NCBI GenBank assembly: GCA_018003015.1
Contig: JAGNEZ010000001.1
Coordinates: forward strand, 78,808-142,807
Reading direction: 5' to 3'
DNA: 64,000 nt
DNA from: Phycisphaerae bacterium
GTDB taxonomy: Bacteria > Planctomycetota > Phycisphaerae > UBA1845 > PWPN01
Part shown: piece by piece, positions 38,757 to 54,719 of the stretch
Position numbering within the stretch: position 1 is the stretch's first letter
How the letters are laid out: every line of letters begins with the position of its first letter
Made by a program: the position numbers and the translations under genes
Notes under the pieces: model-generated
Database searches by the model: none
Told to the model about the DNA's origin: nothing
The model's input: the letters and a program-made list of their open reading frames with translations, nothing else

Positions 38757-38867
38757 CCCACTAAGTTAGTGTTTACTAGTTAAGCACCTCCCAGGACCGG
38801 AGAGCTTGGGGACGTGCCTTGTCAGGGTACAACGCCGGCCGAAGCCCGGCACAAAAGGCCACGAACG

Positions 38868-41800
38868 ATGAGAATCCACTTGGGTTTGGACATCGGCGCC
38901 GTTGGCATCAAGGCGGCCATCCTGGCGGACCGCACCGCGGCAAATGACCTCCCCAGCCCCACCGGGGCGGCCCACCTGCTCCGCTCCGTTGAAGTGCCCC
39001 CAGGGCAGGATACCGCCGTCCTGGTCACCCACTACCGCCGTACCAAGGGACGCCCCTCGGAGGCGGTCCAGTCACTCCTCAAGGACATCCTCAACGACAT
39101 CCCCGCCGACCAGATCGCCGGCCTCATGCTCACCGGATCCGGCAGCGACCTCGTCGCCAAGGCCGCCAGCACCCCACGCTGCAACGAGTTCCAGGCCATC
39201 GCCCGGGCCGTCGACCTGCTCCACCCCGAAGTCCGCACCGTCTTCGAGATGGGCGGCGAGACCAGCAAGTACCTGAAACTGGGACCGGACCCCGCCAGCG
39301 GCACACTCGGCATCATCGACTACAGCACCAACGGTGACTGTGCGGCCGGAACCGGAGCCTTCCTCGATCAACAGGCCAGCCGGCTCAAATTCGCCGTCGA
39401 GGACATCGGCTCCCTCGTCGCTCAGGCCCAGCGGGCCGCCCAGATCGCCGGGCGATGCAGCGTCTTCGCCAAGAGCGACATGATCCACGCCCAGCAGAAG
39501 GGCTTCGCCCCCCCCGAGGTCCTCCGCGGCCTGTGCAAGGCCGTGGCCGTCAACTACAAGGCCGCCGTCGTCAAAGGCCGTGCCCCCGAGGCACCGGTCA
39601 TCCTCATCGGCGGCGTCTCCGCAAACGCGGCCGTGGTCAACGAGCTCCGCGGCGTCTTCGACCTGGACGAAAACACCCTCACCGTCCCCGAGGCGGCCGA
39701 GTCACTCGCCGCGATCGGCGCCGCCGTCATCTCCGCGGCCTCCAATCAAGCCGACACACAAGCGGTCCGCGAACAACTCGCCCGACTGACCGGCAACCAT
39801 CGCGACGCCGCCTGCGACTTCGCGACCTCCCCGCCTCTGACCCTCGACCGAGTCAAGCTGCTCCGCAACCAGGTGAAACCCTACCAAATCCCGGAGAACG
39901 GCTACCTCATCGACGCCTATCTCGGCCTGGACATCGGCTCCGTCGGCACCAAGCTGGTCGTCATCGACGAGCAGGGCGACGTCGTCCATTCAATCTTCAC
40001 CCGCACCGACGGACGACCTATCGAGGTCGTCACCCGCCACATGCGCGAACTCGAACAGGCCGTCGGGGCCAAGGTCCGCATCCTGGCAGTGGGCACCACC
40101 GGCAGCGGCCGCGAGCTCATCGGCGAACTCGTCGGCGCCGACGCCATCACCGACGAGATCACCTGCCACAAGACCGGGGCCACCTTCGTCGGCGATCGGC
40201 TCTTGGGCAAGCGGCCCCAGACCATCTTCGAAATCGGCGGCCAGGACAGCAAGTTCATCAGCCTCGAGTCCGAAGGCGACGGCTCCGGCGACACCATCGT
40301 CGTCGATTTCACGATGAACGAAGCATGCGCCGCGGGCACCGGCAGCTTCCTCGAAGAGCGAGCCGAAGAACTCGGCGTCTCCATCAAGAACGAATTCTCG
40401 GCCGAGGCGTTCAAGTCCAAGGCCCCCATCAAGCTCGGCGAACGCTGCACCGTCTTCATGGAACGCGACGTCAACACCTGCATGCAGCGCGGCGCCAAGC
40501 GCGAGGACGTCATCGCCGGGCTCGCTTACTCCGTGGTCTACAACTACATCAACCGCGTGGTCCGCGGCCGCCCCATAGGCGACTGCGTCTTCTTCCAGGG
40601 CGGCACCGCCTACAACGACGCCGTCGCGGCCGCTTTCAGCGCCGTCACCGGCAAGGAGATCATCGTCCCCCCCCACAACGCCGTGCTCGGAGCCATCGGG
40701 GCCGCCTTGCTCGCCCGCGAGAAAATCGCAACCACCGGCCAGACGACCCGGTTCCGCGGATACCACCTCGACGAGGTCGACTACGCCATCCGCGAATTCA
40801 CCTGCAAGGGCTGCGGCAACCACTGCTCAGTCCAGGAATTCACCGTCGAGGGCGAGAAGACCTTCTGGGGCGACAAGTGCTCCGACCGGTACCGCAAGCG
40901 GGCCAAATCCGACCGCAAGCCGATCATCACCGACCTCGTCGCCCTCCGAAAGGAACTGCTCTACGCCGACGACCGGGGCGACCCAGCCGACGCGACCCTC
41001 ACCGTCGGCGTGCCCCTGGCCATGTACGCCCACGACCTGCTGCCGCTGTACCGCCGGTTCTTCCGCGACTGCGGCTTCAAGTTCGTCCTGTCCGACGAAA
41101 CCAACCGCCAAACGATCCGCATGGGCTACGACTGCGTCGTGGCCGAACCGTGCTTCCCGATCATCGTGGCTCACGGCCACGTCGCCGACCTGATCGAGAA
41201 GAAGGTCGATTACATCTGGCTCCCCAACATCCTCTCCGCCCAGACCAAGTTCGCAGCCCGCGAATCACATGTCTGCGCCTGGGGCCAGACGCTGCCCTTC
41301 GTCATCCGCCAGGCCCCGGCATTCAAAACCTGGCAGGGCCGCATCCTCTGCCCAACGATCCGAATGCAACACGGCCCGGCCGAGATGCGCGAACAAATGG
41401 TCGCAACCGCCGCGGCGCTGGGCGTCAAACGCCGCACCGCCGATAAGGCCTTCAGCACCGGCTGGGCCGCCCTCGAAACCTTCCGCGACAAGTACCTGGA
41501 GGCCGGCCGAGAGGCCCTCGATGTCCTCCGGGATACCGGCGAAAACGGCGTCGTCCTCGTCGGACGCCCATACAACCTCCACGACCCGGGCGTCACCCTG
41601 GCAACCGCCCGAAAGCTCCGCGAACTCTACGGCGTCAATCTCATCCCGATCGACGCACTCCCCCTGGACACCGACATCAGCGACGTGAACGCCAATATGT
41701 ACTGGGAGTACGGCCGCCGCATCCTCGCGGCCGGCAAGCTGATCGCCGACTACCCCAACCTGCACATGATCTACATCACCAACTTCAAGTGCGGGCCAGA

Positions 41801-42095
41801 TTCGTTTGTGAAAACTTTCGTGCGCCCGGCGTCGGGCAAGCCGTTCCTCTCACTCCAGTTCGACGGCCACTCCAACGACGCGGGCATGATGACACGCTGC
41901 GAGGCCTATCTCGACAGCAAGGGGATCCTGCGATGGTGGCGAACCTGCAAAACCGAAATCGCGGCCACAGCCTCGCTGGCCGACGACTCTACATCCCACA
42001 AATGGCTTACGCCGGCTGCCGACTCGTGGCCGCCTGCTTCCGATCGATCGGCATCGACGCCCAGCCGGCACCCGACTCCGACGCCGAAACCCTAG
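38868..42095 (+). CDS. Acyl-CoA dehydratase activase with two ASKHA ATPase domains and DUF2229
   Basis: A 1075-residue protein. It holds two BcrAD/BadFG-type ATPase domains: the first starts IHLGLDIGAVGIKAAILADR, the second near residue 350 as AYLGLDIGSVGTKLVVIDEQ. Each has the Cys ligands of the bridging Fe4S4 cluster (DCAAGTGAFLDQQ with GRCSVF; EACAAGTGSFLEE with ERCTVF). A Cys-rich linker (CKGCGNHCSVQEF) precedes a DUF2229 region (VGVPLAMYAHDLLPLYRRFF, PTIRMQHGPAEM). Such activases use ATP to drive low-potential electrons into 2-hydroxyacyl-CoA dehydratases or benzoyl-CoA-reductase-like enzymes in anaerobes. Family-like sequence ends at EAYLDSKGILRWW; the last 50 residues are Ser/Pro/Thr-rich and only mirror the overlapping gene. 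Confidence 0.92.
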   Translation: MRIHLGLDIGAVGIKAAILADRTAANDLPSPTGAAHLLRSVEVPPGQDTAVLVTHYRRTKGRPSEAVQSLLKDILNDIPADQIAGLMLTGSGSDLVAKAASTPRCNEFQAIARAVDLLHPEVRTVFEMGGETSKYLKLGPDPASGTLGIIDYSTNGDCAAGTGAFLDQQASRLKFAVEDIGSLVAQAQRAAQIAGRCSVFAKSDMIHAQQKGFAPPEVLRGLCKAVAVNYKAAVVKGRAPEAPVILIGGVSANAAVVNELRGVFDLDENTLTVPEAAESLAAIGAAVISAASNQADTQAVREQLARLTGNHRDAACDFATSPPLTLDRVKLLRNQVKPYQIPENGYLIDAYLGLDIGSVGTKLVVIDEQGDVVHSIFTRTDGRPIEVVTRHMRELEQAVGAKVRILAVGTTGSGRELIGELVGADAITDEITCHKTGATFVGDRLLGKRPQTIFEIGGQDSKFISLESEGDGSGDTIVVDFTMNEACAAGTGSFLEERAEELGVSIKNEFSAEAFKSKAPIKLGERCTVFMERDVNTCMQRGAKREDVIAGLAYSVVYNYINRVVRGRPIGDCVFFQGGTAYNDAVAAAFSAVTGKEIIVPPHNAVLGAIGAALLAREKIATTGQTTRFRGYHLDEVDYAIREFTCKGCGNHCSVQEFTVEGEKTFWGDKCSDRYRKRAKSDRKPIITDLVALRKELLYADDRGDPADATLTVGVPLAMYAHDLLPLYRRFFRDCGFKFVLSDETNRQTIRMGYDCVVAEPCFPIIVAHGHVADLIEKKVDYIWLPNILSAQTKFAARESHVCAWGQTLPFVIRQAPAFKTWQGRILCPTIRMQHGPAEMREQMVATAAALGVKRRTADKAFSTGWAALETFRDKYLEAGREALDVLRDTGENGVVLVGRPYNLHDPGVTLATARKLRELYGVNLIPIDALPLDTDISDVNANMYWEYGRRILAAGKLIADYPNLHMIYITNFKCGPDSFVKTFVRPASGKPFLSLQFDGHSNDAGMMTRCEAYLDSKGILRWWRTCKTEIAATASLADDSTSHKWLTPAADSWPPASDRSASTPSRHPTPTPKP

Positions 42096-43228
42096 AACTC
42101 GGCGGCCTCCACGTCAGCGGCGAGGAATGCCTCCCCCATAAGGTCACCGTCGGCGATTTCATGAAGATCTGCCGCCAGCCCGACTTCGAGCCCGCCAAGA
42201 CCGCCTTCATGATGCCCACCGCCCACGGCCCCTGCCGATTCGGGCAGTACGCCCCCTACCTGCGCAACATGCTCGACCAGATGGGCCTCCAGGACGTCAT
42301 GGTCTTCTCCCCAACCAGCGCCGACGGCTACGACGGATTCGGCGAAAACGCCCGCGAACTGACCAAGAACCTGTGGATGGGCGTTATCGTCGGCGACCTG
42401 GCCCTCAAGTTCCTGCTCAAAACCCGCCCCTACGAAACTCAGCCCGGAACCAGCGACCAGGTCTTCCAGGAATCCGTCGCCAGCTTCGCCCAGGTCCTCT
42501 CCACCCCCGGCCTCAAGACCAAAACCCGGCTCAACGAACTGGTCAAACGCATCGGGCAAATGCGCGACCAGTTCCGCGCCGTCCCCGCCAGGTACCTCAA
42601 GGGACGCCCGCTCATCGGCCTGGTCGGCGAGATCTTCTGCCGACTCAACACCTTCAGCAACGACGACGTCGCCCGCCGAATCGAAAAATTCGGCGGCGAA
42701 TGCTGGCTCTCCGACGTCGCCGAGTGGGTCTGGTACGTCAACTGGTACGTCGAGCACAAGCTGGTACGCAACCGGGGACGGCTCAACGCCACCATGCTCA
42801 CCCACAAAATCAAGACCCACCTGCAGCACAAGTACGAGCAGATCCTCCTCGCCCCCGTCCTGGAGGATCTCCGCGGCTACGAAGAACCTCACGACATCCG
42901 CGATGTGCTCCGCCAGGCCGAACCCTATCTGCCCCCCACCGGCTGCATCGGCGAGATGGTCCTCAGCGTCGGCAAGTCCATATACCTCCACGAGAAGGGC
43001 GCAGATGGCATCATCGACATCAGCCCGTTCACCTGCATGAACGGCATCGTCTGCGAGGCGGTCTACCCCGCGGTCAGTAAGGCCCACGAGGACCTGCCCA
43101 TCCGCATCTGCTACTTCGACGGAGTCAACACCCACATCGACCGCGACCTGGAAATCTTCCTCGACCTGGCCAGAGCCTACCAGCGCCGCAAACGCCGGCC
43201 ACGGGTCTACCCGGCGTATTTCGAGTGA
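41933..43228 (+). CDS. 2-hydroxyacyl-CoA dehydratase (HgdB/BcrC)-like protein
   Basis: A 431-residue protein. LAGRRLYIPQMAYAGCRLVA, GGLHVSGEECLPHKVTVGDF, TAHGPCRFGQYAPYLRN and ISPFTCMNGIVCEAVYPAVS are the Cys-containing blocks of the HgdB-like C-terminal module that in many bacteria is fused behind the activase in a single protein of about 1400 residues. Here it is a separate frame, overlapping the activase by 163 bases. ATG 41933 is preceded by AAGGGG eight bases upstream, supporting independent translation; the ORF could also start upstream inside the activase. It is probably an electron-accepting or scaffolding partner of the activase; the CoA substrate is unknown. Confidence 0.88.
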   Translation: MVANLQNRNRGHSLAGRRLYIPQMAYAGCRLVAACFRSIGIDAQPAPDSDAETLELGGLHVSGEECLPHKVTVGDFMKICRQPDFEPAKTAFMMPTAHGPCRFGQYAPYLRNMLDQMGLQDVMVFSPTSADGYDGFGENARELTKNLWMGVIVGDLALKFLLKTRPYETQPGTSDQVFQESVASFAQVLSTPGLKTKTRLNELVKRIGQMRDQFRAVPARYLKGRPLIGLVGEIFCRLNTFSNDDVARRIEKFGGECWLSDVAEWVWYVNWYVEHKLVRNRGRLNATMLTHKIKTHLQHKYEQILLAPVLEDLRGYEEPHDIRDVLRQAEPYLPPTGCIGEMVLSVGKSIYLHEKGADGIIDISPFTCMNGIVCEAVYPAVSKAHEDLPIRICYFDGVNTHIDRDLEIFLDLARAYQRRKRRPRVYPAYFE

Positions 43229-43234
43229 GCCCCC

Positions 43235-45658
43235 TCAACGCACCTTGTCGTATGGCCACATCTCGATCCCGCCGTCCATCACCCGCACTTGGCGGAACCC
43301 GGCATGGCGAAGAATGATCGACGCCTCGTAGGCCCGCAACGAGAGCTTGCTGAAAACCACAATCTCCCGGTCACGCGGCAGCTCGTCGAGGCGGCCGCGA
43401 AGCGCACCCAGCGAAATGAACGTCGAACCCGCCAGGTGAATCTGCTCGTGTTCGCCCGGAGTGCGCACGTCGAGAAAAACAAACTCCCGCTTCTCGTCAA
43501 GCATCCCGCGGACCTCGGCGGGGGAAACGCCCACCATGTGGCCATCAAGCTTGTTCCGGGCCACATTCGCCGCGGTGATCAGGTTGTCCATGACCGACGA
43601 GTAAGGCGGCGCGTAAGTGAGATCCAGGCAGGCAATCTGATCCACGGTCATCCCCCCAATGATCGCCGTCGCCGCCAGATCGATCCGCTTCTCGCCCAGC
43701 CCCGGCCCCACCGCCTGAGCCCCAAGCAGCCGCCGCGTCGCCCGATCCACCACCAGCTTGAGCAGCAGCATCTTCGCGTTGGGCATGAACGGCTCCCGGT
43801 CCGGCCCGGGAACCAGCACGCTGACCACATCGAAACCACATTCACGGGCCAGGTACTCCGAAAGCCCCGTCCGGGCCACGCAGTACTCGAACACCTTGCA
43901 CACCGCGCTCGCCAACACCCCCGGAAAACGATCCGAGCCGCCACACACGTTCACCGCCGCCACCCGCCCCTGCTTGCTGGCCACCGAACCGTACGGCACG
44001 TACCGCGCTTTCCCCGTGATCAGCCCTCGCGTCTCGACGCAGTCGCCGGCCGCGTAAATGTCCGGATCCGACGTCCGCATCATCTCGTCCACCTTGATCG
44101 CCCCCGTCGTCCCAATCACCAGCCCGGCATTCTCGGCCAACTTGACGTTCGGCCGAAACCCGATCGCCAGAATGACCAGATCGGCCGGAAGAAGCCCCCT
44201 GTCGGTCAAAACCTCCCGAACCTTCCCGTCACCCTTGAACGCCTGGACCGCCGTCCTCGTCATCATCCGAACACCCTTGGACTCCAGGTGCTGCTCGACC
44301 AGCGCGGCCATCTCGGCATCCAGGATCGGAAGCGGCTGCGGCCGACGCTCGACAATCGTCACCCGGCACCCCTTCTCCACCAGGTTCTGCGTGATCTCAA
44401 CGCCCAGAATGCCGCCCCCGACAATGACCACGTCCCGAGCCTTGCCCCCGGCCAGCGCCGACTTGATCCGCTCCGCGTTCTTCAGCCCGTGCAGCGTGAC
44501 CACATTGTGCAGATTCGAACCCGGAATGGGCGGAATCGTCGGAACCGAACCCGTGGTCAGAATCAGCTTATCATAAACCAGCGCCGACTCCGCCCCGGAC
44601 ACGCCATCCCGCACCCGAACGGTACGCTCGGCCCGATCAATGGCCAACGCCTCGGTCTGATTCATCACCCGCACGTTCTTGATGCTCTGAAAAAACACCG
44701 GATCCCGAACCGCACCCGCCGGCGTGCTCAGCAGCCCGCGAGGATCACCCACCACCCCGGACATGTAGTACGGAAGCCCGCACCCGGCGCAGGCAAGAAA
44801 CTGGCTCTGCTCCACAATCGTCACCTCGGCGTCAGGCATGAGGCGGATAATCTTGGACGCCGCCTTGGGCCCGGCGACCGAACCGCCGACAATGACCACC
44901 CGCAAACGTGCAGGCATGGGCGTTCCTCCCGCCTGGGCAGCCGGAGCGTGATCCGGCCGCGGCAGGCACAGAACAATGCGCGCCCCCCCAAACTCCGATG
45001 GCTCGGCCCACACCCTCCCGCCAGCCGCTTCCACCACCGACTTCACAAACGCCAGGCCAAGCCCCGTCCCCGACCGGGCCGAACCCGTCGCCCTCGCCGT
45101 GCGATGAAACGGCTCAAACACCTTCTCCCGGTCATCGGCCGCAATCCCCACCCCCGAATCCGACACCGCCAGCAACACCCCACCACCACCTGCATCCGGC
45201 GAAAGACTGACCACCACCCGCCCGTGCTCCGGCGTGTACTTGAAGGCATTGCTCAACAGGGCATCGAGAACCTCAGTCATCGCCGGCTCGTAGCCCCGCA
45301 CCACCGCCAACTCGTCCCCCATGTCCAGCGCTAGGCTCACGTGCGCCCGGCGAGACTCCTCGACATGACGCGGCCAGACCTTCCGAATCAGGGCGGCGAG
45401 ATCGGCCGTGCTCGTCACCGCCAGATGCGAGTCGCTCGCCCGGGCAATGGCCAGCATGCGCTCCGCCGCCCCAAGCGCCTGCTCGCACCGGGCCAGGGCC
45501 TTGCTCACCAGGTCCTTCTGCTGGTCATTGAGCGGGCCGGCAAACTCGCCGAGCAACGTCTTGAGCAACATCGCGGCCGTGGCCACCGGCCCCTTCAACT
45601 GATGGGCAACCAGCGACGCATACTTCAATCGCTCAAACTGACTCTCCTCGGCAGACAT
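43235..45658 (-). CDS. Fusion: histidine kinase, CoA-disulfide reductase-like flavoprotein, rhodanese domain
   Basis: An 807-residue three-part protein. Residues 1-235: histidine kinase with His19 in LVAHQLKGPV, N box LLSNAFKYTPE (Asn137), G boxes SDSGVGIA and SGTGLGL. About 250-690: an FAD/NAD(P)H disulfide reductase of the CoA-disulfide reductase type: VVIVGGSVAG, the redox-active Cys motif CAGCGLPYYMSG (Cys293), VVIVGGGILGVEITQNL and IYAAGDCVETR, ending in the dimerisation region TYAPPYSSVMDNLITAANVA. About 710-807: a rhodanese domain with VFLDVRTPGEHEQIHLAG and DGGIEMW, but the active-site Cys is replaced by Ser770 (IVVFSKLSLRAYEA). It may couple thiol or CoA redox state to signalling. 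Convergent with the activase operon, six bases away. Confidence 0.9.
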   Translation of the reverse strand: MSAEESQFERLKYASLVAHQLKGPVATAAMLLKTLLGEFAGPLNDQQKDLVSKALARCEQALGAAERMLAIARASDSHLAVTSTADLAALIRKVWPRHVEESRRAHVSLALDMGDELAVVRGYEPAMTEVLDALLSNAFKYTPEHGRVVVSLSPDAGGGGVLLAVSDSGVGIAADDREKVFEPFHRTARATGSARSGTGLGLAFVKSVVEAAGGRVWAEPSEFGGARIVLCLPRPDHAPAAQAGGTPMPARLRVVIVGGSVAGPKAASKIIRLMPDAEVTIVEQSQFLACAGCGLPYYMSGVVGDPRGLLSTPAGAVRDPVFFQSIKNVRVMNQTEALAIDRAERTVRVRDGVSGAESALVYDKLILTTGSVPTIPPIPGSNLHNVVTLHGLKNAERIKSALAGGKARDVVIVGGGILGVEITQNLVEKGCRVTIVERRPQPLPILDAEMAALVEQHLESKGVRMMTRTAVQAFKGDGKVREVLTDRGLLPADLVILAIGFRPNVKLAENAGLVIGTTGAIKVDEMMRTSDPDIYAAGDCVETRGLITGKARYVPYGSVASKQGRVAAVNVCGGSDRFPGVLASAVCKVFEYCVARTGLSEYLARECGFDVVSVLVPGPDREPFMPNAKMLLLKLVVDRATRRLLGAQAVGPGLGEKRIDLAATAIIGGMTVDQIACLDLTYAPPYSSVMDNLITAANVARNKLDGHMVGVSPAEVRGMLDEKREFVFLDVRTPGEHEQIHLAGSTFISLGALRGRLDELPRDREIVVFSKLSLRAYEASIILRHAGFRQVRVMDGGIEMWPYDKVR

Positions 45659-45838
45659 GCCCGCCTCTCCTCGGCCGAAAGAACGAGCCCATTGTAGCGG
45701 CCGACGTGAACTGAAGGCAAAAGAGGAAAACGCGGCAATCAGGGATCATAGTTGACTGCTACACGCTCACCCCAGACCCTTGCCCCCCATGCCCAGTCCC
45801 TTGCTTTTCTCCCCCCCTTCCGTTACCAAGATCAGTTT

Positions 45839-45868: not shown

Positions 45869-46621
45869 ATGGCCAAAACCGTCCTGGCTTTCATGGCCCA
45901 CCCGGATGACGTCGAATTCAAGTGCGCCGGCACCCTCGCCCGCCTTAAACAGGAGGCCGGCTGCCGAATCGTCATCGCCACCGCGACCAGCGGCGACTGC
46001 GGCTCCGTCCAGTACCCGCCACAAGAAATCGCCCGGATCCGCAACCAGGAGGCCAAACAATCGGCCGCCATCCTCGACGCCGACTACTACTGCGCCGGGT
46101 CGGTCGACCTGCTGATCGTCTACAACGAGAACACCATCCGCCGCTTTACCGAAGTCGTTCGTAAGGCCCAACCGGATATCGTCATCACCGCTCCACCGGC
46201 CGACTACCTCATCGACCACGAAATGACCAGCCACCTGGTCCGCACCGCCTGTTTCGCCGCCCCCGCCCCCAACTTCCTCACCTACGACATCGACCCGGCC
46301 AAGCCCATCCCGGCCGTCCCTCACCTCTACTACTGCGACGCCGTCGATCACAAGGACATCCACGGCCAGCCGTTCCAGAGCACCTTCGTCGTCGATATCA
46401 CCGCCGTGCAGCCAATCAAGGAGAAAATGCTCGCCTGCCACGCCTCCCAGCGCGACTGGCTCCGGGCCCACCATGGAATCGACGAGTATTTGGACATGAT
46501 GCACCGCGCCGACGAAACCAACGGCCGGCTGATCAACCGACCTGCCGGCGAAGCCTTCCGCATGCACGCCGGTCACGGCTACCCGCAGGACAACATCATC
46601 ACCACATTGCTGAAGACGTGA
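45869..46621 (+). CDS. PIG-L/LmbE-family deacetylase
   Basis: A 250-residue zinc-dependent deacetylase of the PIG-L family, which includes GlcNAc-inositol and bacillithiol-pathway deacetylases and catabolic N-acetylglucosamine-derivative enzymes. The metal site is FMAHPDDVEFKCAGT (AHPDD), then ARIRNQEAKQSAAIL (RxxE region) and TAPPADYLIDHEMTSHLVRT with the third metal His. AAGGGAG is about nine bases before ATG 45869. It stands alone between two convergent/divergent neighbours, so its substrate is not indicated. Cytoplasmic; no signal peptide. Confidence 0.9.
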   Translation: MAKTVLAFMAHPDDVEFKCAGTLARLKQEAGCRIVIATATSGDCGSVQYPPQEIARIRNQEAKQSAAILDADYYCAGSVDLLIVYNENTIRRFTEVVRKAQPDIVITAPPADYLIDHEMTSHLVRTACFAAPAPNFLTYDIDPAKPIPAVPHLYYCDAVDHKDIHGQPFQSTFVVDITAVQPIKEKMLACHASQRDWLRAHHGIDEYLDMMHRADETNGRLINRPAGEAFRMHAGHGYPQDNIITTLLKT

Positions 46622-46713: not shown

Positions 46714-49700
46714 TCAGTCGTCCACCGTGTTATAGTACCCGATCGGAGCCGTCTCCGTGATCCGCTCCGGCAAGTCATTGCTGTACAGGCACCGCGTCCG
46801 GTCCACGGTCACCTGCGTCCGGAGCCAGATCGGCTGGCCCGCAGAGGTGTCTCCGATCACCGCGTAGATCGTGAACACGTGGCTCTTCACCGTCGCCCAG
46901 TCCTGAAGCCGAACCAGAGGCGCGATCCACTGCAGGTATCCCAGGTACGTGAACGGCCGCTGAACGCTCGTGGGATCGTCCGTGGTCGTCTCGTACTGGT
47001 AGGAACGGAAGCCCCCCATCGTCAGCGTCTCGTTGGTCCCACCATCCTTCTTGGTACTGACTTCCACCTTGATACTGCTGATCAGATCACACAGCGAGCC
47101 GACGGACGCGAAACCCGGCGCACCACTGCTGTTCGCCACCAGCGTCCGGACGTTGCCATCACCCCATTGCACCGACCGGTTCTCGCGATAGCTGACCATC
47201 GACCGGGCCCATTCCGCCGAAACACTGGGCAGCCCTACCCCGGTCTTCCTGAAAGCCAGCGGGTCAGCCGGCTTGACGGCGTAATGCTCATCAACCAACG
47301 CCCCCATGAACACCGCCCCAGGCCGGCTCTTCAGCTGCTTGAAGCTCGCCGGATCCAGCCGCCAGCTCTCCAACTCGGCCACCGGCAACCCCGAGAGCGG
47401 ACCACCGTCCATATTCGGAATCGCATTGTCCGAAGCCACCGAGGTCGAGAACGAAGGGATGGCGTCCGGCAGAACCGGCAGACCGTCGAGCACCCACCAC
47501 GGGGCCAGGTTCACATTGACCCGCCCGCTGACCTTCGGACCCAGCGGCGAGGCGGCATCCTCCACCGGCTCCACCCGCGGATAGCTGCACCTCAAGACGC
47601 CGGTCGCATCGTACGCCGCAAACGCATAAGCCCCACCGTACGCCGCAGCGTAGTCCAGCGAGTCAACCATCCCCATACTGTCGGCAGCAGCTCCCGTCAG
47701 AGCCTTGGGCAGAGGCCGGACCAACTCCTCCAGGGGCAGCGCCGTGAAGTAGTCGTACACCAGCTGGCCCCACGGCCCGCTGAACCGGCCCTTCTGGCCA
47801 TCAAGATCCATGGCCCTTTGATCAGTGTCAAAAACAGGTAGATGCCCGTTATCGACCTGCACCAGCTGGCCGAAGACCTGACGCCCCGTCCCCGGCGGCG
47901 ACTGCGTGGCCGCCACGGTGGCAGGTGTCTGAATGCCGCTGGCAACGTCCTGCCGGTGCGCATAACGAGTCACCAGCAGCAGCGTGCCCGTGGTCGGGAA
48001 CGCAATGCAGCCACCAGTGTACGGGTCGATGCCGCGATCCGAGGTCACAATCGGGAACGGCGCCAAGGGAGCCTTCGCGGGAAGGTAAACCTTGACCGCG
48101 TTGTCCGGTGGCTTGACGAACGGACTGAAGGCCAGAGCACCGCTCGCACTCGCCTCACCAAGCTGGATGCCCAGCGCCTCACGCCAGGCAAGCCACTGGT
48201 TGTCGCAGACCACCTTCTTCGGCGCCGGACTGTAGGGCAGCGAGTCCCGCTCGCTGAGCTTGGGCAGGAAACCGGCGGCGGACATGGGATGCGAATTCAG
48301 AAGATTGTGCTGCATGCGGCCCTCGCCCACGCCCAGCCGGGTCAGCGGGTCTGCATCATAGTTCAGCGGGAACAAGACCTGGCGCCCCAGCGTGAAATAC
48401 CAGTGTTGCGGCGGCTCCCCCGCGGGCTCCTTCGGACGCTGGAGCGAAGTGTCCAGCACCAGCAGATCACTGGCCCCCGTCGGAGACTTGATCTTCGCGT
48501 CGCTGGTGTCCCACTCACCCGCCCATCGCGTCGCCGGCAGCTGCGGAACCCCGGCAGGGATGACACCCGCTCCCGGATCCGTCGGCATCATCTCGTCGAT
48601 CACGACTCTCAAGCTACCCCCGCCCACCCCGGAAACGTCCACGATCCGCAGCCCGTTGCGAACCAGCTGCACCGGCTGTCCCGCTCCAATCTTGAAGCCG
48701 GTGGCCTGGAACACGTTCTTGTTGACGACCGCGGGAACGGCGAGATTCGGGTCACCGTTGATCGAGTTGATCACCTTCACGGCTTGGTCGGACGCGGTCG
48801 AACTCATGATCACCAGGTAGCTGCGCGGGGCAATCGTCTTGGACGGCGTGGTGACCACGTCAACCAGCTTGATGGCACCGGCTACATCGTTGTTGACCTG
48901 AAGCTCGAGCCCGCTGAGACTGAGCTCCTCGTCATACGGATTGTAAATCTCAACGGCATAGACCGATCTGCCGTCATCCCGGTTCGCGTTCCAGGCCAGG
49001 GGGATCTGCGTCGTGTCCACCGTGATCACCACCCTGGCGTACGCCTCGGTCAGGTATGGCTGCTTCTCAACCCCGAAGACCTTGACCACAGGGGCACCCG
49101 CGGGCCACTCAAAGTAGGTGCTCGCCTGGAGCTTGTAGGCGTAGGGAACCGCGGCACCCGCACCCCACTCACTCACGGCCAGCAACGCGGTGTCATCATC
49201 AGCGAAATCAACCGTGTTCACCGCCAACTGAGCGGCCAAGTGAATCTGCTGCCGCAGCTGGGCCTCCGTCGGATCAACGTGGGTGCCCGGCACCGTGGTG
49301 TGCTGAATCATCGCCAGGTAATAGGCCATCAACTGCTCGACCCGGCGATAGCTCGGAGTCTCAACGAAAGTGGACCCGCTGTAAACCGGAACGAGCACGT
49401 CCCGCAGACTGAAGGCCGTGCGGAGCCCGGCTGTATTGAACTCCAGCGAATTGCCCGGGACGCCGTCCAATACACTCCCAACCCGCCCGACCGCGTTCGC
49501 CGGGAAGTTGACCGCGTTGGCCGGATCCGGGTTCAGAATGTAGTAAAGGCCGCGGTAGAAGTCCCTGTACGTCGGATCAGCGACATTGACCCCCTTCTCG
49601 AATCGCCCTTGCTCATCCCGGTTGGGCCGCAGGATATCATCACTGCTGAAGGCCGTCACCAGATGCCGCCGGTCGTAAGTGTCCTTGCTCGCCGTGTAAG

Positions 49701-50751
49701 TGCTCTCCGCCCGCCCCTCATCCGAGGGCGTCAGCCGCAGCTGGCACCAGTCGCTGTCCGCCGGATCTCCCCCGGCCGGACTGTTGTCCAGAGGCCAGTA
49801 ATGAGGCGTCCGCCCCGTGATGACGCTCGACGCACCACTCGGAGCTTCATACCCCAGAGTCACCGGCAACCAGTGAATCACATTGTTCAACGCCAGCTGG
49901 CTGGGCGTCACATCCGTACCATTCGCGTTCTTGCCCAGGCTCTTCGGCAGCATGAACCGCCTGCGAATCGCGGCTTCGTCCGTCGCCCCGAGAACAACCT
50001 TCTTGTCCAGAAACAGCGAGGATGGGTTCGCACCAAAACCATCCTCCGCGTGGAACACCTGATCCAGCAGCGTCGGAGCGGTCTGCCGGTCCAACAGAAC
50101 CATGCCTCCGTGCGGAAGAACACGAAGATCAGCCTCGTACGAATCACCAAACAACCCGACCGAGTTGACGTCCCCGGTCTTCATCGAGTCCTGGAGACCG
50201 TCCCCGTCCGCGTCCCGCACCGGACCCCGGGTCAGCCCCACGCCAGTGATCTTGTTGGCCCCGGGTCGCAAACCGGAAGTGGCCTGCAGCGTCGCGATGT
50301 CAACGTTGTCAACCGGCCAGGAGGAGGCAAACAGGGCCCAGATCTTGCCGTTGCTGCCAAGCCCCGCCAGATACGGCTCCGCACTGCTCAGCAGAAGATC
50401 ACCTTCACGTACCAGCGTTTGAGCGTTGACCGAAGAACCTGACCACAACCCGGCCAGATCCCCGTAGTCCTCGATCACCGAGGTCTCAGCACCCCAGCCG
50501 CGGTTATAGGGCGTTCCATCCTTGCCGACCACGTCCTCACGAAGCGCCGAAATCGCCGGCTCCAGAATCGTCTTGGCCACCGCATCAATGCTCTTGCCCA
50601 CCTCGGCCGTACGAGCCGTCTGCCGCTCAAACCGGGAAACGATCAACAACGTCGAGCCAACGATGAAGAGCATCGCCAGCACACCCACCACCAGGATCAT
50701 GACTGTCCCGCGTCGCCGCGTTCGCTCAGTTTGTCTTGTTCGGGGCACCAT
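46714..50751 (-). CDS. gspK: Giant GspK-like pseudopilin
   Basis: A 1345-residue protein, about four times the normal GspK length (around 330). The N-terminus RRRGTVMILVVGVLAMLFIV is the prepilin-like hydrophobic helix preceded by basic residues. T2SSK features are recognisable: AVNTVDFADDDTALLAV near residue 515 (compare LxDWIDxDD) and GRVNVNLAPWWVLDGLPVLP near 1075 (compare INLNTAPxxVLxALP). Between them is a lamin-tail-like segment (VYAVEIYNPYDEELSLSGLE, about 596-615). It is the last gene of the gspG-H-I-J-K order. ATG 50751 follows GGAG. It probably caps a pseudopilus; the huge insertions may be surface or cargo-binding domains. Confidence 0.83.
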   Translation of the reverse strand: MVPRTRQTERTRRRGTVMILVVGVLAMLFIVGSTLLIVSRFERQTARTAEVGKSIDAVAKTILEPAISALREDVVGKDGTPYNRGWGAETSVIEDYGDLAGLWSGSSVNAQTLVREGDLLLSSAEPYLAGLGSNGKIWALFASSWPVDNVDIATLQATSGLRPGANKITGVGLTRGPVRDADGDGLQDSMKTGDVNSVGLFGDSYEADLRVLPHGGMVLLDRQTAPTLLDQVFHAEDGFGANPSSLFLDKKVVLGATDEAAIRRRFMLPKSLGKNANGTDVTPSQLALNNVIHWLPVTLGYEAPSGASSVITGRTPHYWPLDNSPAGGDPADSDWCQLRLTPSDEGRAESTYTASKDTYDRRHLVTAFSSDDILRPNRDEQGRFEKGVNVADPTYRDFYRGLYYILNPDPANAVNFPANAVGRVGSVLDGVPGNSLEFNTAGLRTAFSLRDVLVPVYSGSTFVETPSYRRVEQLMAYYLAMIQHTTVPGTHVDPTEAQLRQQIHLAAQLAVNTVDFADDDTALLAVSEWGAGAAVPYAYKLQASTYFEWPAGAPVVKVFGVEKQPYLTEAYARVVITVDTTQIPLAWNANRDDGRSVYAVEIYNPYDEELSLSGLELQVNNDVAGAIKLVDVVTTPSKTIAPRSYLVIMSSTASDQAVKVINSINGDPNLAVPAVVNKNVFQATGFKIGAGQPVQLVRNGLRIVDVSGVGGGSLRVVIDEMMPTDPGAGVIPAGVPQLPATRWAGEWDTSDAKIKSPTGASDLLVLDTSLQRPKEPAGEPPQHWYFTLGRQVLFPLNYDADPLTRLGVGEGRMQHNLLNSHPMSAAGFLPKLSERDSLPYSPAPKKVVCDNQWLAWREALGIQLGEASASGALAFSPFVKPPDNAVKVYLPAKAPLAPFPIVTSDRGIDPYTGGCIAFPTTGTLLLVTRYAHRQDVASGIQTPATVAATQSPPGTGRQVFGQLVQVDNGHLPVFDTDQRAMDLDGQKGRFSGPWGQLVYDYFTALPLEELVRPLPKALTGAAADSMGMVDSLDYAAAYGGAYAFAAYDATGVLRCSYPRVEPVEDAASPLGPKVSGRVNVNLAPWWVLDGLPVLPDAIPSFSTSVASDNAIPNMDGGPLSGLPVAELESWRLDPASFKQLKSRPGAVFMGALVDEHYAVKPADPLAFRKTGVGLPSVSAEWARSMVSYRENRSVQWGDGNVRTLVANSSGAPGFASVGSLCDLISSIKVEVSTKKDGGTNETLTMGGFRSYQYETTTDDPTSVQRPFTYLGYLQWIAPLVRLQDWATVKSHVFTIYAVIGDTSAGQPIWLRTQVTVDRTRCLYSNDLPERITETAPIGYYNTVDD

Positions 50752-50800
50752 GGTCAGGTCTCCATTACTACATCCAACCCCTTTTACGACTGGACCAGGT

Positions 50801-50831
50801 GACAAGTCCAGAAGATAGGGACAAGTCCAGA
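50801..50831 (+). repeat. Two direct repeats upstream of gspK
   Basis: GACAAGTCCAGA occurs at 50801-50812 and 50820-50831, 19 bases apart, in the 223-base gap before gspK. The core resembles the GGGACAGGTCC element beside the RAYT gene. A protein-binding site or REP remnant is possible. Confidence 0.5.
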
Positions 50832-50974
50832 TGGAATCGAACGATCGGCAAACACAGGCCTATCGGCCGGTTCAAGCCAAAACGAGAAATGGTAACCGAA
50901 AACCGAGACGACCGAAACACCACCCGAAACTCACGCCCACCGTCGCTTCAACGCCCCCCCCATCCCCAACCCGC

Positions 50975-52426
50975 CTACTCCCAGGCATGCACGATGGTCT
51001 GAACAACCGGGTCGGTCAGCCGGCGGCTGGCGTCGAAAAGCCGAATGGTGATCCGAACCGCCTTGGGCCAGCGGAAGGGATTGCTCTTGTCGCGAAGATC
51101 GACATCGTTCGTGTTCGCCTCCGGATAGTCACCCGGACTCGTCGATAGCTTCGACCAGACCACCACCTGACCGCTCGGAACGGCCTGCCAGCGAATCGGC
51201 TGCGGCTTGGGGTAATACTCCTCCGCCGTGCCCTTGGCATCCTTGTCCTGATCAAGCCATGTGGCCACGTCCGGTTCGTTGGTGGAGGGGTTCAACGCGA
51301 TCTCCCGCGGATCGTCGTAAGTGTACTCGACCTTGAAGTCGGCACAACCCGGCAGGAAATAAGCCGCTAGCCGCTTCTCCATGCCCAGCGGCGGATTCGG
51401 GTCAATGAAAGAGCGGCTGGAACCGGGGCGGCTCGGATCGTGCACATAGAACCACTGGGGCCAGTACGCCGGCGAACCCGAAGACCCGAAAGTGGGAAAC
51501 ACCGTCGTCGTCGGAACATACGTCGTATACCCCGCGTCCAGCGCACCCTTTCGCCGCCAGATGTTCCCGGCACGGGTATACCACTTCTTGTCCGCCAATA
51601 CGAAAGATCCGCCCGGGCTGAAATACCGGTTGGGATCCCAGAGGAACTTCTCGCCCGCCCCAACAAAAAACGAAAAATCCAGATTGGCCTCATCGTAGTG
51701 GAAGTGGCCCGGCCAGACACCACTATCGAACGCGGACCACGCCTCACGGTAGACGTCCGCGTAGGTGTCCGGGGTGCCGGTCTCGCCGGTGAACGCCACG
51801 CTGGTCAAAGGCCAGACACCAGTGTTGGCCCCCGCGATGCCCAACTTGGTGAAACCAACAATCCGCCGGGCCAGATGCCACTGCGAAGCCGGAATCGCCG
51901 AGGGCGACCCCTCAACCATCCGCGTCGTGCCCGGCAGCCAGCTCCCATTGGTCGGGTTGAGCCGGGCAAGGTTCGCATGACCGTAGACCACTTGCCGGTA
52001 CTGCTCGAAGGTCGGACCCGAAGGACCGGGATCGAAGACAAACGGGTCGAAGTCCTGCTTGTTGAGCAGCATCAGGACATCCGCTTGATGCGGCGCCGGC
52101 GAGACCCCATTGGTCCGGTCATCGGCGGTCAAATGGGCACTCACCGTCACCCCCGCGATCGCCAGGACGCCATCCGTCGGTACCACGGCCTGCAAATCCT
52201 GCTGGATACTGTCCGTGATCTGACGAAGCTGGCGATACAACGCCGTCGTCGCCTGGGCCGTCCCGCTGGCCTTCCCGGCCGTCGAGAAGATCATCCCAAT
52301 CATCGCCATCAAAGCCAGCAGAATCGCCACCGACACGATCAACTCAACCAGGGTAAACGCCCGACGCGTCGATCCCCTCTGACTGACCGCCACCCGCCGA
52401 CCGCTGATCGCTCGGTACTCCGTCAC
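50975..52426 (-). CDS. gspJ: GspJ-like pseudopilin
   Basis: A 483-residue pseudopilin. The start is GTG 52426, overlapping the gspI stop as GTGA, with AAAGGTGG upstream inside gspI. After a basic leader (RAISGRRVAVSQRGSTRR) comes the type II prepilin motif AFTLVELIVSVAILLALMAM with the usual Glu at +5. The GspJ character comes from its place between I and K and from the minor-pseudopilin-like soluble region; a calcium- or strand-rich extension (about residues 150-400) makes it roughly twice the normal length. The longer frame to 52798 antisenses gspI coding and is not used. 223 bases separate it from gspK. Confidence 0.8.
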   Translation of the reverse strand: MTEYRAISGRRVAVSQRGSTRRAFTLVELIVSVAILLALMAMIGMIFSTAGKASGTAQATTALYRQLRQITDSIQQDLQAVVPTDGVLAIAGVTVSAHLTADDRTNGVSPAPHQADVLMLLNKQDFDPFVFDPGPSGPTFEQYRQVVYGHANLARLNPTNGSWLPGTTRMVEGSPSAIPASQWHLARRIVGFTKLGIAGANTGVWPLTSVAFTGETGTPDTYADVYREAWSAFDSGVWPGHFHYDEANLDFSFFVGAGEKFLWDPNRYFSPGGSFVLADKKWYTRAGNIWRRKGALDAGYTTYVPTTTVFPTFGSSGSPAYWPQWFYVHDPSRPGSSRSFIDPNPPLGMEKRLAAYFLPGCADFKVEYTYDDPREIALNPSTNEPDVATWLDQDKDAKGTAEEYYPKPQPIRWQAVPSGQVVVWSKLSTSPGDYPEANTNDVDLRDKSNPFRWPKAVRITIRLFDASRRLTDPVVQTIVHAWE

Positions 52427-53871
52427 GGCGCCACCACCTTTCGCAGGGCGACGCCCACCACCGGCGAGCGGCTCTGGAAGCTCACCCCCGTCGTGCTCCG
52501 CTCCACCGCCGGCGGAATGACCCACGCCAGCACGTCCTGCGCCGACCCCTTGCCTCGGGCCACCGTCAGGCGCGACCAATCGTTCACCGTCGCGGTGTAG
52601 GTGTACTCGTCCCAGGCCTTCGGCGAACTCAGTACCTTGACCTCCGACGCCAGTACCCTCTGAAAAGTCCCCGCCCGGAGCTGCCCCTTCCCTTGGGCAA
52701 TGATGAAATACGATCCCGCAGGCAGCAGCCGGGCAACCTCCGTGGTACAGTACACCTCGCCGCTCTCCAGATTCACCGCCATCAACTTCACCAGCCACGG
52801 AACCGGAAAAACCGAGTCCTCCTCCGCCGCCGGATCGGCCTGCGGCTGCCAGCAGGCATCCAGGTGATCCGCGCTGTTCGATGCGAAGTCAAAATCCACG
52901 TTGTACCCGCCGCCCCCCGCGATGCTCTTCTGCCGGGCAAACCTCGCATTGGCATCCCCACGATACAGCGTCACCACCGTCACCAGCATCTCCGCGTGCT
53001 TGGGATCGGCCAACATCCGGTGGCTGAACGCCAGCCAGGAATACCGCCGCGAGGCCAGGTCCCGAAGAACATCGGTCAGCGTGTTGATGCCCACGTCCTT
53101 GGGACGCCACACCGAGGCCGAGTAAGCCGAGTAACCCGTCGAACTGGACATCCCATACAACTCCGCCGTCGGAAACGGCGGATACACCTGATCAAGCAGG
53201 TGGATGCGAGGCAGTGTCACCACCGGCTGTGGGTGATTGTTGTCCGAGCGAAAGGTCGGCAGAACCATGGTCCTGACCACGGCGTCGATCGTCTTCTCTG
53301 GAGCCTTCTGGGCGACATCGCGGTAGTCGGCCGGCAGGTTCTGGGCCGGAACCACGGAAACGGCATCTTCGGGAGCGAGCTCGCTCGGCCAGCCAGTCTG
53401 CTCGGTGAAGACCCGGCACTTGGCAATGAACTCCGGCACCGTCTGCTGTACCGGAACCAGGCCCGGCCAGTTCTTCGGCGCCCAGACATACGGCGGCCCC
53501 ACCTGAACCCCGTAGCTCGCCTTCAGCGAGCCAACCGATCCCACTAGGAGGTCAATGACCTCCTGCTGCTGCAGACTGATCTGGCCATTGGCACTCATGT
53601 CCGTCCGAAGGATATCCGGAACCAGAACCCGGGCAGCGGCAGGAACGGCAGCCGTGTCCGCAATCTTGTCCAGCTGTTTGTATCCCGGCACCTTGACCGT
53701 CAGCATCGCCATGCCGACATCCGTCACCGCCTGCGAAATGTCCATCTGCACCGTGTCACGGGTCAGGTCCAGACCCACCGGGAAGATCGTCGCCACCATC
53801 ACGATCCCGATCCCCAGGATCATGATCGCGATCATCAGCTCCAGCAGCGAAAAACCCTTGCGTCTGGTCAT
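52423..53871 (-). CDS. gspI: GspI-like pseudopilin
   Basis: A 482-residue pseudopilin. The prepilin signal is RRKGFSLLELMIAIMILGIG, with Gly before the cleavage site and Glu at +5; the GspI/PilV-type GIGIVMVATIF helix follows. The soluble region is far longer than the 100 or so residues of usual GspI proteins and contains several repeats of aromatic/Pro-rich segments (GPPYVWAPKNWPGLVP). ATG 53871 overlaps the gspH stop as ATGA, so translation is coupled, and its stop overlaps the gspJ start. The I assignment rests mainly on gene order. Confidence 0.78.
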   Translation of the reverse strand: MTRRKGFSLLELMIAIMILGIGIVMVATIFPVGLDLTRDTVQMDISQAVTDVGMAMLTVKVPGYKQLDKIADTAAVPAAARVLVPDILRTDMSANGQISLQQQEVIDLLVGSVGSLKASYGVQVGPPYVWAPKNWPGLVPVQQTVPEFIAKCRVFTEQTGWPSELAPEDAVSVVPAQNLPADYRDVAQKAPEKTIDAVVRTMVLPTFRSDNNHPQPVVTLPRIHLLDQVYPPFPTAELYGMSSSTGYSAYSASVWRPKDVGINTLTDVLRDLASRRYSWLAFSHRMLADPKHAEMLVTVVTLYRGDANARFARQKSIAGGGGYNVDFDFASNSADHLDACWQPQADPAAEEDSVFPVPWLVKLMAVNLESGEVYCTTEVARLLPAGSYFIIAQGKGQLRAGTFQRVLASEVKVLSSPKAWDEYTYTATVNDWSRLTVARGKGSAQDVLAWVIPPAVERSTTGVSFQSRSPVVGVALRKVVAP

Positions 53872-54719
53872 GGCTGGGCACCCTCCACCAGGGTCCCCGT
53901 CGCCCGATTGACGAACAGGACCCGGGCGCTGTCTCGCAGGAACGCCACCCGCGCCTGGCTGTCCTCGGACGGAATGCTCTCCCATTTCTTGCGGTCGTAC
54001 AACAACAGACTACGGGCGGATTCCATCGGATGAGTCACATACCGAGCCCAGATGTAGCCGGTACCTGCTTCTATGTAGGGCTGGGTCATGTCGGCGTAGG
54101 AGTTGTCACTGGCCTTGAACCGCGTCAGCTCGCCATTGGAGCCGATGACCACAAAAAACGTCTCAATGGAATTGTAGGGCACCGGCGGGCTCGGCGCCCC
54201 CAACGCCGCCGGTATATAACTCAGCTTGCTCCCGGCCAGCGAGACCAGACTCAGGGCACTGGACGGAGCAACCCAGAACCCGCGAGGCAGGTTGAAAACC
54301 TTCGATTGCGGATCGTGCCGGAAGGCCGCATCCTTGAGCGGAGCGTAGGTGAGAATCCTGGCTCGCTGGTGGTCCAGCCATACCACCCCCTGGAAACCCG
54401 AGTTCGTTCGATCCTGCCCGGCCACGTCAACCATCAGCCCATGGTCGTTGACCTTGTAGGCCCGCTCAAACCGGATCGCCACCGGCAAGCCCGTGGCCTG
54501 GGCCGTGGCCTGGGCCGCAGTCAGCAAACCGTTGATCGTGCTCACCGCCTGCGATTCCTCGTTCGACGACAGCATCGGCCCGATCGCCGGACCCGTCAGC
54601 GAAACCAGCAATACGATGATGCCAACCACAACCATCAGCTCGATGAGCGTGAAACCACCCCTCATCGCTGACCCCTGACCGCCGATCGCTGACCGCTGAA
54701 AGCTACTCTTCATCATCAC
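53868..54719 (-). CDS. gspH: GspH-like pseudopilin
   Basis: A 283-residue pseudopilin with the prepilin motif MRGGFTLIELMVVVGIIVLL (Gly before the cut, Glu at +5). The first 20 residues (MMMKSSFQRSAIGGQGSAMR) form the leader. The start is GTG 54719 or the adjacent ATG 54716, overlapping the gspG stop as GTGATG, with AAGGG upstream. The C-terminal half holds beta-strand-like segments (SIETFFVVIGSNGELTRF) and ends ARVLFVNRATGTLVEG, like the GspH soluble domain. The assignment uses both the H-like C-terminus and the gene order. Confidence 0.8.
   Translation of the reverse strand: MMMKSSFQRSAIGGQGSAMRGGFTLIELMVVVGIIVLLVSLTGPAIGPMLSSNEESQAVSTINGLLTAAQATAQATGLPVAIRFERAYKVNDHGLMVDVAGQDRTNSGFQGVVWLDHQRARILTYAPLKDAAFRHDPQSKVFNLPRGFWVAPSSALSLVSLAGSKLSYIPAALGAPSPPVPYNSIETFFVVIGSNGELTRFKASDNSYADMTQPYIEAGTGYIWARYVTHPMESARSLLLYDRKKWESIPSEDSQARVAFLRDSARVLFVNRATGTLVEGAQP

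Follow-up and report, generated by a model that had tools for sequence, protein, structure and literature searches.

Whether a bacterial histidine kinase can take an entire sulfur-handling enzyme as its input is the question raised by one gene of a Phycisphaerae bacterium in the phylum Planctomycetota. The gene lies in the window, the whole 64,000-nucleotide stretch of DNA that was analyzed, and forms a single unbroken minus-strand frame of 807 codons from ATG to stop (43235-45658). Its product fuses a histidine kinase core, a persulfide-reductase-like flavoprotein and a rhodanese domain (Table 1). A sequence-only reading had described the same frame and had placed His19, the N and G boxes, Cys293 and Ser770 where they are found here. 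It had further proposed that the protein is a CoA-disulfide reductase whose redox state is read out as phosphorylation, acting as a switch for a neighboring acyl-CoA pathway.

Table 1. Features of the kinase–reductase–rhodanese fusion gene (positions in the window unless residues are given).
Feature	Position	Strand	Basis or remark
Whole gene, kinase–persulfide-reductase-like–rhodanese fusion	43235..45658	-	807 aa; kept in 29 further genes
Primary start ATG 45656-45658 with upstream Shine-Dalgarno GAGGAGAG	45656..45672	-	Shine-Dalgarno energy -8.4
DHp / HisKA helical hairpin	45437..45619	-	Pfam, motif table, AlphaFold model
Phospho-acceptor His19	45602-45604	-	H box HQLKGPV
HATPase_c ATP-binding domain, N/G1/F/G2 boxes	44954..45289	-	Pfam, motif table
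Internal Shine-Dalgarno GGGAGG (44925-44930) and in-frame ATG (44915-44917, Met248)	44915..44930	-	Candidate second translation start
FAD/NAD(P)H persulfide-reductase-like domain, Pyr_redox_2 and dimerization	43559..44902	-	Pfam, PDB match
Redox Cys293	44780-44782	-	Within reductase domain
Npsr-type loop STPAGAVR	residues 311-318	-	Within reductase domain
Rhodanese domain	43256..43525	-	Pfam
Ser770 at the rhodanese catalytic Cys position	43349-43351	-	Alignment, motif table

The window protein matches the Pfam domains HATPase_c (85.3 bits against a cut-off of 26.4), Pyr_redox_2 (219.3 bits), Pyr_redox_dim (53 bits) and Rhodanese (46 bits against 22.2). Its HisKA match is weak (22.3 bits against 26.9), and homologues exceed that cut-off (34.8 bits in L043, 28.2 in L041). 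An AlphaFold model built with 27 fused homologues (mean pLDDT 81) contains a helical hairpin bearing His19, an ATPase fold, a disordered linker at residues 238-248, and the reductase and rhodanese folds. The kinase part is predicted to fold as a kinase. The model has no sensor or membrane domain N-terminal to the kinase core, and its first helix begins at residue 3.

The fusion is conserved in related genomes, with 29 further fused genes that are 50-95% identical to the window protein; one of the 30 genes in total ends at a contig edge. Most belong to the window's class of Planctomycetota, where some records are labeled Phycisphaerae, and one (G701) is found elsewhere in the phylum. The same phylum holds stand-alone reductase–rhodanese relatives, 41 in the set with two of them cut by contig ends. 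In a tree of the reductase–rhodanese part, made by a quick method, the fused genes group in a single clade (SH-aLRT 95) that excludes G701, suggesting that the fusion event happened once or twice. A scan covering 84,980 species, made with patterns specific to the window and reaching close relatives only, yielded no fusions outside Planctomycetota. The reductases of G350 and G242b, both cut by contig ends, were not counted as stand-alone. A further candidate N-terminal fusion, in G016 (44%), was rejected; its upstream open frame carries no Pfam domain and is probably open by chance, in DNA that is rich in GC.

The genome assembly comprises 144 contigs and the junction carries a Shine-Dalgarno sequence and an ATG, as two separate genes would, yet an artificial joining of two genes by assembly or sequencing has a negligible probability. 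The same unbroken frame occurs in 29 other genes from other assemblies, which excludes the assembly join in the linker about which the sequence-only reading had worried, and in G006 the fusion is unbroken on a single 4.28-Mb contig. Homologues separated near residue 245, the other ground for doubt raised earlier, do exist as stand-alone reductases of sister lineages with no kinase upstream, but their existence does not overturn the fusion, which is genuine, old and conserved within its lineage. No description of a kinase–reductase–rhodanese architecture was found in the literature searched, as had been supposed; the papers on kinases, persulfides and rhodaneses, as judged by title and abstract, concern ordinary two-component systems only. 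The architecture is thus undescribed in that literature, and its kinds of component, histidine kinase and NADH-dependent persulfide reductase (Npsr), are known.

The assignment of the reductase as a CoA-disulfide reductase (CoADR) is not supported. The window protein falls short of both CoADR equivalogs in NCBIfam, TIGR03385 (378.7 vs 578.8) and PRK09564 (347.5 vs 458). Its best PDB match is the Npsr of A. fulgidus (NoxA-3, 6pfz), which aligns with residues 253-801 at an E value of 2e-149. Both proteins have an extra loop over the CoA pocket, TTYGAVR in 6pfz and STPAGAVR in the window protein. The position of redox Cys293 is a Cys in all copies tabulated, and the Pyr_redox_2, dimerization and C-terminal rhodanese domains expected of the family are present. 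By these comparisons the reductase is closest to Npsr rather than to CoADR. The A. fulgidus enzyme carries out NADH-dependent persulfide and polysulfide reduction and has no detectable activity on CoA-disulfide (PMC7969121).

The kinase half retains its conserved motifs. The window protein has N box NAFKYTP (137), G1 box DSGVGI (167), an F box (180) and G2 box GTGLGL (197), and the H, N, G1, F and G2 boxes are present in every fused protein that reaches that far. Across 27 aligned fused proteins, A18-H19-Q20 and P24 are nearly invariant, while N137, D167-S168-G169, G171, G197, G199, G201 and C293 are invariant. The residue after the phospho-acceptor histidine is usually Glu or Asp; the Gln found at this position across the fused family could lower kinase activity. 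Similar H boxes occur in some known kinases. The weak HisKA score of the window copy, and the stand-alone sisters that manage without a kinase, might suggest that the kinase half is a decayed passenger with no signaling role, in a gene kept because the reductase is needed. Such decay is quite unlikely, since His19 and the ATP-binding boxes are kept across proteins that are only 50-65% identical, and response-regulator receivers adjoin the fusion in five lineages, as described below.

The junction between kinase and reductase carries a candidate second translation start, with GGGAGG seven bases upstream of the in-frame ATG 248 in the window gene. Its product would be a 560-aa reductase–rhodanese, and stand-alone relatives begin at the same codon position. 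Over all 30 fused genes, which form the unbiased test, 16 have a start codon at the junction position and the remaining 14 lack it. Every one of those 16 copies has a Shine-Dalgarno energy of -6 kcal/mol or lower, a level reached by 12% of in-frame ATG/GTG codons in the same genes. Among rows chosen for having a Shine-Dalgarno sequence, GGAG and ATG are strongly conserved within a variable linker, and the Gly of GGAG is coded by GGA, which makes up 4-31% of Gly codons in those genes. This pattern is best explained by retention of the downstream gene's own start after fusion, and is most simply read as a predicted internal start that is still used. Because the Shine-Dalgarno sequence and start codon sit between kinase and reductase in these copies, the fusion gene may also yield the reductase alone.

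In this class of enzyme, the rhodanese Cys accepts sulfur, and bound CoA serves as its carrier to the redox Cys; in E. faecalis CoAPR, turnover requires both Cys residues (PMC9405070). The window copy lacks the catalytic Cys of Npsr and CoADR–rhodanese enzymes and probably turns over little or no persulfide, because its sulfur-accepting Cys is replaced by Ser770. An inactive rhodanese, which the sequence-only reading had made a defining part of the protein, is not typical of the family, as the catalytic Cys is present in 21 of 30 fused copies. Ser replaces it in the window's genus and in G159, and Gly in six other fused copies. At least five losses are seen on the tree, all inside the fused clade, which accounts for 31% of the total branch length (for five losses all falling there, a rough P of 0.003). 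The stand-alone sequences show no Cys loss except in G350, truncated at a contig end and placed inside the fused clade. Loss of the sulfur acceptor therefore appears, from the tree, to be recurrent after fusion; no association with loss of the internal start was seen among the fused copies. Alignments with structures of S. loihica Npsr have Ser at the same position in 3ntd and Cys in 3nta. The window's genome also encodes an intact stand-alone CoADR–rhodanese paralogue on contig C8 (G000). Phe at a conserved Tyr position (residue 624) was rejected as a sign of decay, because Phe is common in stand-alone relatives too.

These features bear on whether the protein is mainly a persulfide reductase, with the kinase either regulating the enzyme or only tying the two in equal amounts. 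The invariant redox Cys, the rhodanese Cys kept in most fused copies and an internal start that would give free reductase fit such an arrangement. The confinement of rhodanese Cys losses to the fused clade does not, as it is what would be expected if catalysis matters less once fused, and the protein has no other domain that could serve as a kinase input. A mainly enzymatic role is a possible but doubtful alternative.

The neighborhood of the gene was the basis for the proposed redox switch, in which a CoA-disulfide reductase with a dead rhodanese as binding domain would act on the adjacent 2-hydroxyacyl-CoA dehydratase activase system. A convergent activase pair does adjoin the fusion in both species of the window's genus, and CoA binding is expected from the family. 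The pair adjoins the fusion in this genus only, however, and is absent from the neighborhoods of six other fused copies examined; being convergent, it is not co-transcribed with the fusion. The closest enzyme shows no detectable activity on CoA-disulfide, and the rhodanese Cys is usually present, all of which makes an activase switch very unlikely. No shared pattern of neighbors is found in G006, G008, G012, G002, L043 and L044, where photolyase, PrmC, MnmA, amylase and other genes flank the fusion.

Several other features of this neighborhood are recorded here in their own right. The activase protein (38814-43228, plus strand) is split between frames: the ORF at 38814-42095 ends in a Pro-rich tail that is apparently out of frame, and conservation continues downstream in another frame, probably from an ATG at 41933 preceded by a Shine-Dalgarno-like AAGGGGA. 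The same arrangement, with the same switch of constraint between frames, is found in G001, so overlapping genes, or a frameshift that is itself conserved, explain the split better than an error does. Divergent from the fusion is a PIG-L type deacetylase (45869-46621, plus strand) related to BshB1, with 99.7 bits, below the equivalog cut-off of 182.5; its adjacency is kept in G001. A run of large proteins beside the fusion (46714-54719, minus strand), several with pilin-like N-termini (FTLVELI, FSLLELM, FTLIELM), is conserved in G001 in the part tested.

Single-domain receivers of about 125-130 aa directly adjoin the fusion in five lineages. They lie upstream on the same strand in G259 and G130, downstream on the same strand in G194 and G208, and downstream on the opposite strand in G078. 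These adjacent receivers are mutually similar (E about 1e-8 or better). These are five cases, two belonging to a single family, among the roughly 27 loci whose flanks could be used, and the chance of such adjacency, here and for the redox operons below, was estimated by hand over few lineages. The fusions of the window's own genus, and most fused copies overall, have no receiver next to them. The phosphorylation readout proposed earlier remains a reasonable inference because CheY-like receivers adjoin the fusion in five lineages; the CoA-disulfide part of that proposal is not supported.

Rex and/or [NiFe]-hydrogenase operons also occur near the fusion in G159, G194, G259, G279 and G078. In the first four, a few kilobases at most separate the fusion from a hydrogenase-type operon encoding HydB-like, HydG-like, NuoH, NuoC, Mrp-like and NuoD-like subunits, the sharing of this operon by G259 and G279 being based on BLAST clustering of the first two genes. 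The NuoD-like subunit carries the [NiFe]-hydrogenase nickel motifs CGIC and DPCYSC, as read in G159 and G194, and a Rex repressor lies within a few kilobases of the fusion in G159, G259 and G279. In G078, the fusion is convergent with a row of NuoEF/[NiFe]-hydrogenase genes whose last member is the adjoining receiver. The same receiver subfamily is found beside [NiFe]-hydrogenase genes in the window's genome, G008 and G211, and the best subfamily receiver of the window's genome sits in a hydrogenase operon with its own GAF kinase alongside.

Two observations concern the hydrogenase loci themselves. On contig C13 of G000 (L147:6941-13788), a NuoEF fusion, [NiFe] small and large subunits, a single-domain receiver and a GAF histidine kinase stand in a row that is likely a two-component-controlled hydrogenase. 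The operons of L095 (G194), L100 (G159), L102 (G259) and L115 (G279) are membrane [NiFe]-hydrogenase-like with an unusual mix of subunits, their HydB/HydG subunits being sulfhydrogenase or AsrA/AsrB-like.

The favored reading, to which we assign a probability of about 0.5, is a soluble histidine kinase with a C-terminal Npsr dimer as its input, reporting persulfide/NADH state to a CheY-like receiver. The fusion, its conservation, the intact motifs, the repeated Cys loss, the internal start signal and the neighbors are observed; kinase activity and signaling, the sensed ligand, the receiver partner and its targets are what we infer as follows. The Npsr module would bind FAD, NADH and CoA and take up sulfane sulfur. 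Since kinase and reductase are each homodimer modules, a single symmetric dimer could accommodate the two halves, and the redox or ligand state of Npsr (reduced flavin, CoA persulfide, NADH supply) would reach the kinase through this shared homodimer. The kinase would pass phosphate to a single-domain CheY-like receiver, which would match hydrogen/NADH energy metabolism to the sulfur load. The copy in the window's genus would act mainly as a sensor, and the C8 CoADR–rhodanese paralogue could supply catalysis.

It is unusual for a sensor module to follow the kinase core on its C-terminal side, and this position counts against a sensor kinase, as do the sub-threshold HisKA score of the window copy and Gln after the histidine. 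So do the absence of an adjoining receiver in the window's genus and in most fused copies, and the GAF kinase that already accompanies the hydrogenase-operon receiver of the window's genome. Receivers near kinase genes, and hydrogenases near redox genes, are also not very rare. A more elaborate version of the sensor-kinase reading is offered only tentatively, as an enzyme turned sensor. One gene would give both full-length kinase–Npsr and free Npsr, perhaps in mixed dimers that set kinase output, and the repeated Cys losses would mark lineages in which the module now serves purely as a persulfide/NADH sensor that controls hydrogenase and energy metabolism.

Cells usually sense persulfide and NADH state through small transcription factors, CstR and Rex among them. 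If the sensor-kinase reading is true, this would be a histidine kinase for which an entire persulfide reductase is the sole possible input, and a sulfur-handling enzyme would feed directly into phosphosignaling. Through the fusion, these anaerobes may sense their sulfur/NADH state directly by way of a metabolic enzyme, and it offers a candidate connection from sulfur stress to the hydrogen metabolism of anaerobic Planctomycetota. Orthologues differ naturally in whether they have the sulfur-accepting Cys and the internal start, so comparing them can test the model.

Among known systems, A. fulgidus Npsr (NoxA-3, 6PFZ; PMC7969121) is closest to the enzyme half. The C-terminal 550 residues of the window protein align with it end to end, and the two share a single redox Cys, a CoA-covering loop and a C-terminal rhodanese; Npsr, however, stands alone without a kinase and keeps its rhodanese Cys519. 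E. faecalis CoAPR (8A56; PMC9405070) and B. anthracis CoADR–rhodanese (3ICR) are likewise two-domain enzymes in which CoA bridges the rhodanese and redox Cys, but neither has a kinase, and CoAPR requires both Cys residues where the window protein has Ser at the second. REC–thioredoxin reductase fusions (PMC5847659) also join a two-component domain to a flavin disulfide reductase, although the domain is a receiver rather than a kinase and the enzyme is thioredoxin reductase rather than Npsr. In the kinase half, the window protein shares its core and boxes with HisKA/HATPase_c kinases of the WalK/VicK type. It differs from these in its Gln after the phospho-acceptor histidine and in lacking an N-terminal sensor or membrane part, with a C-terminal enzyme in the sensor's place.
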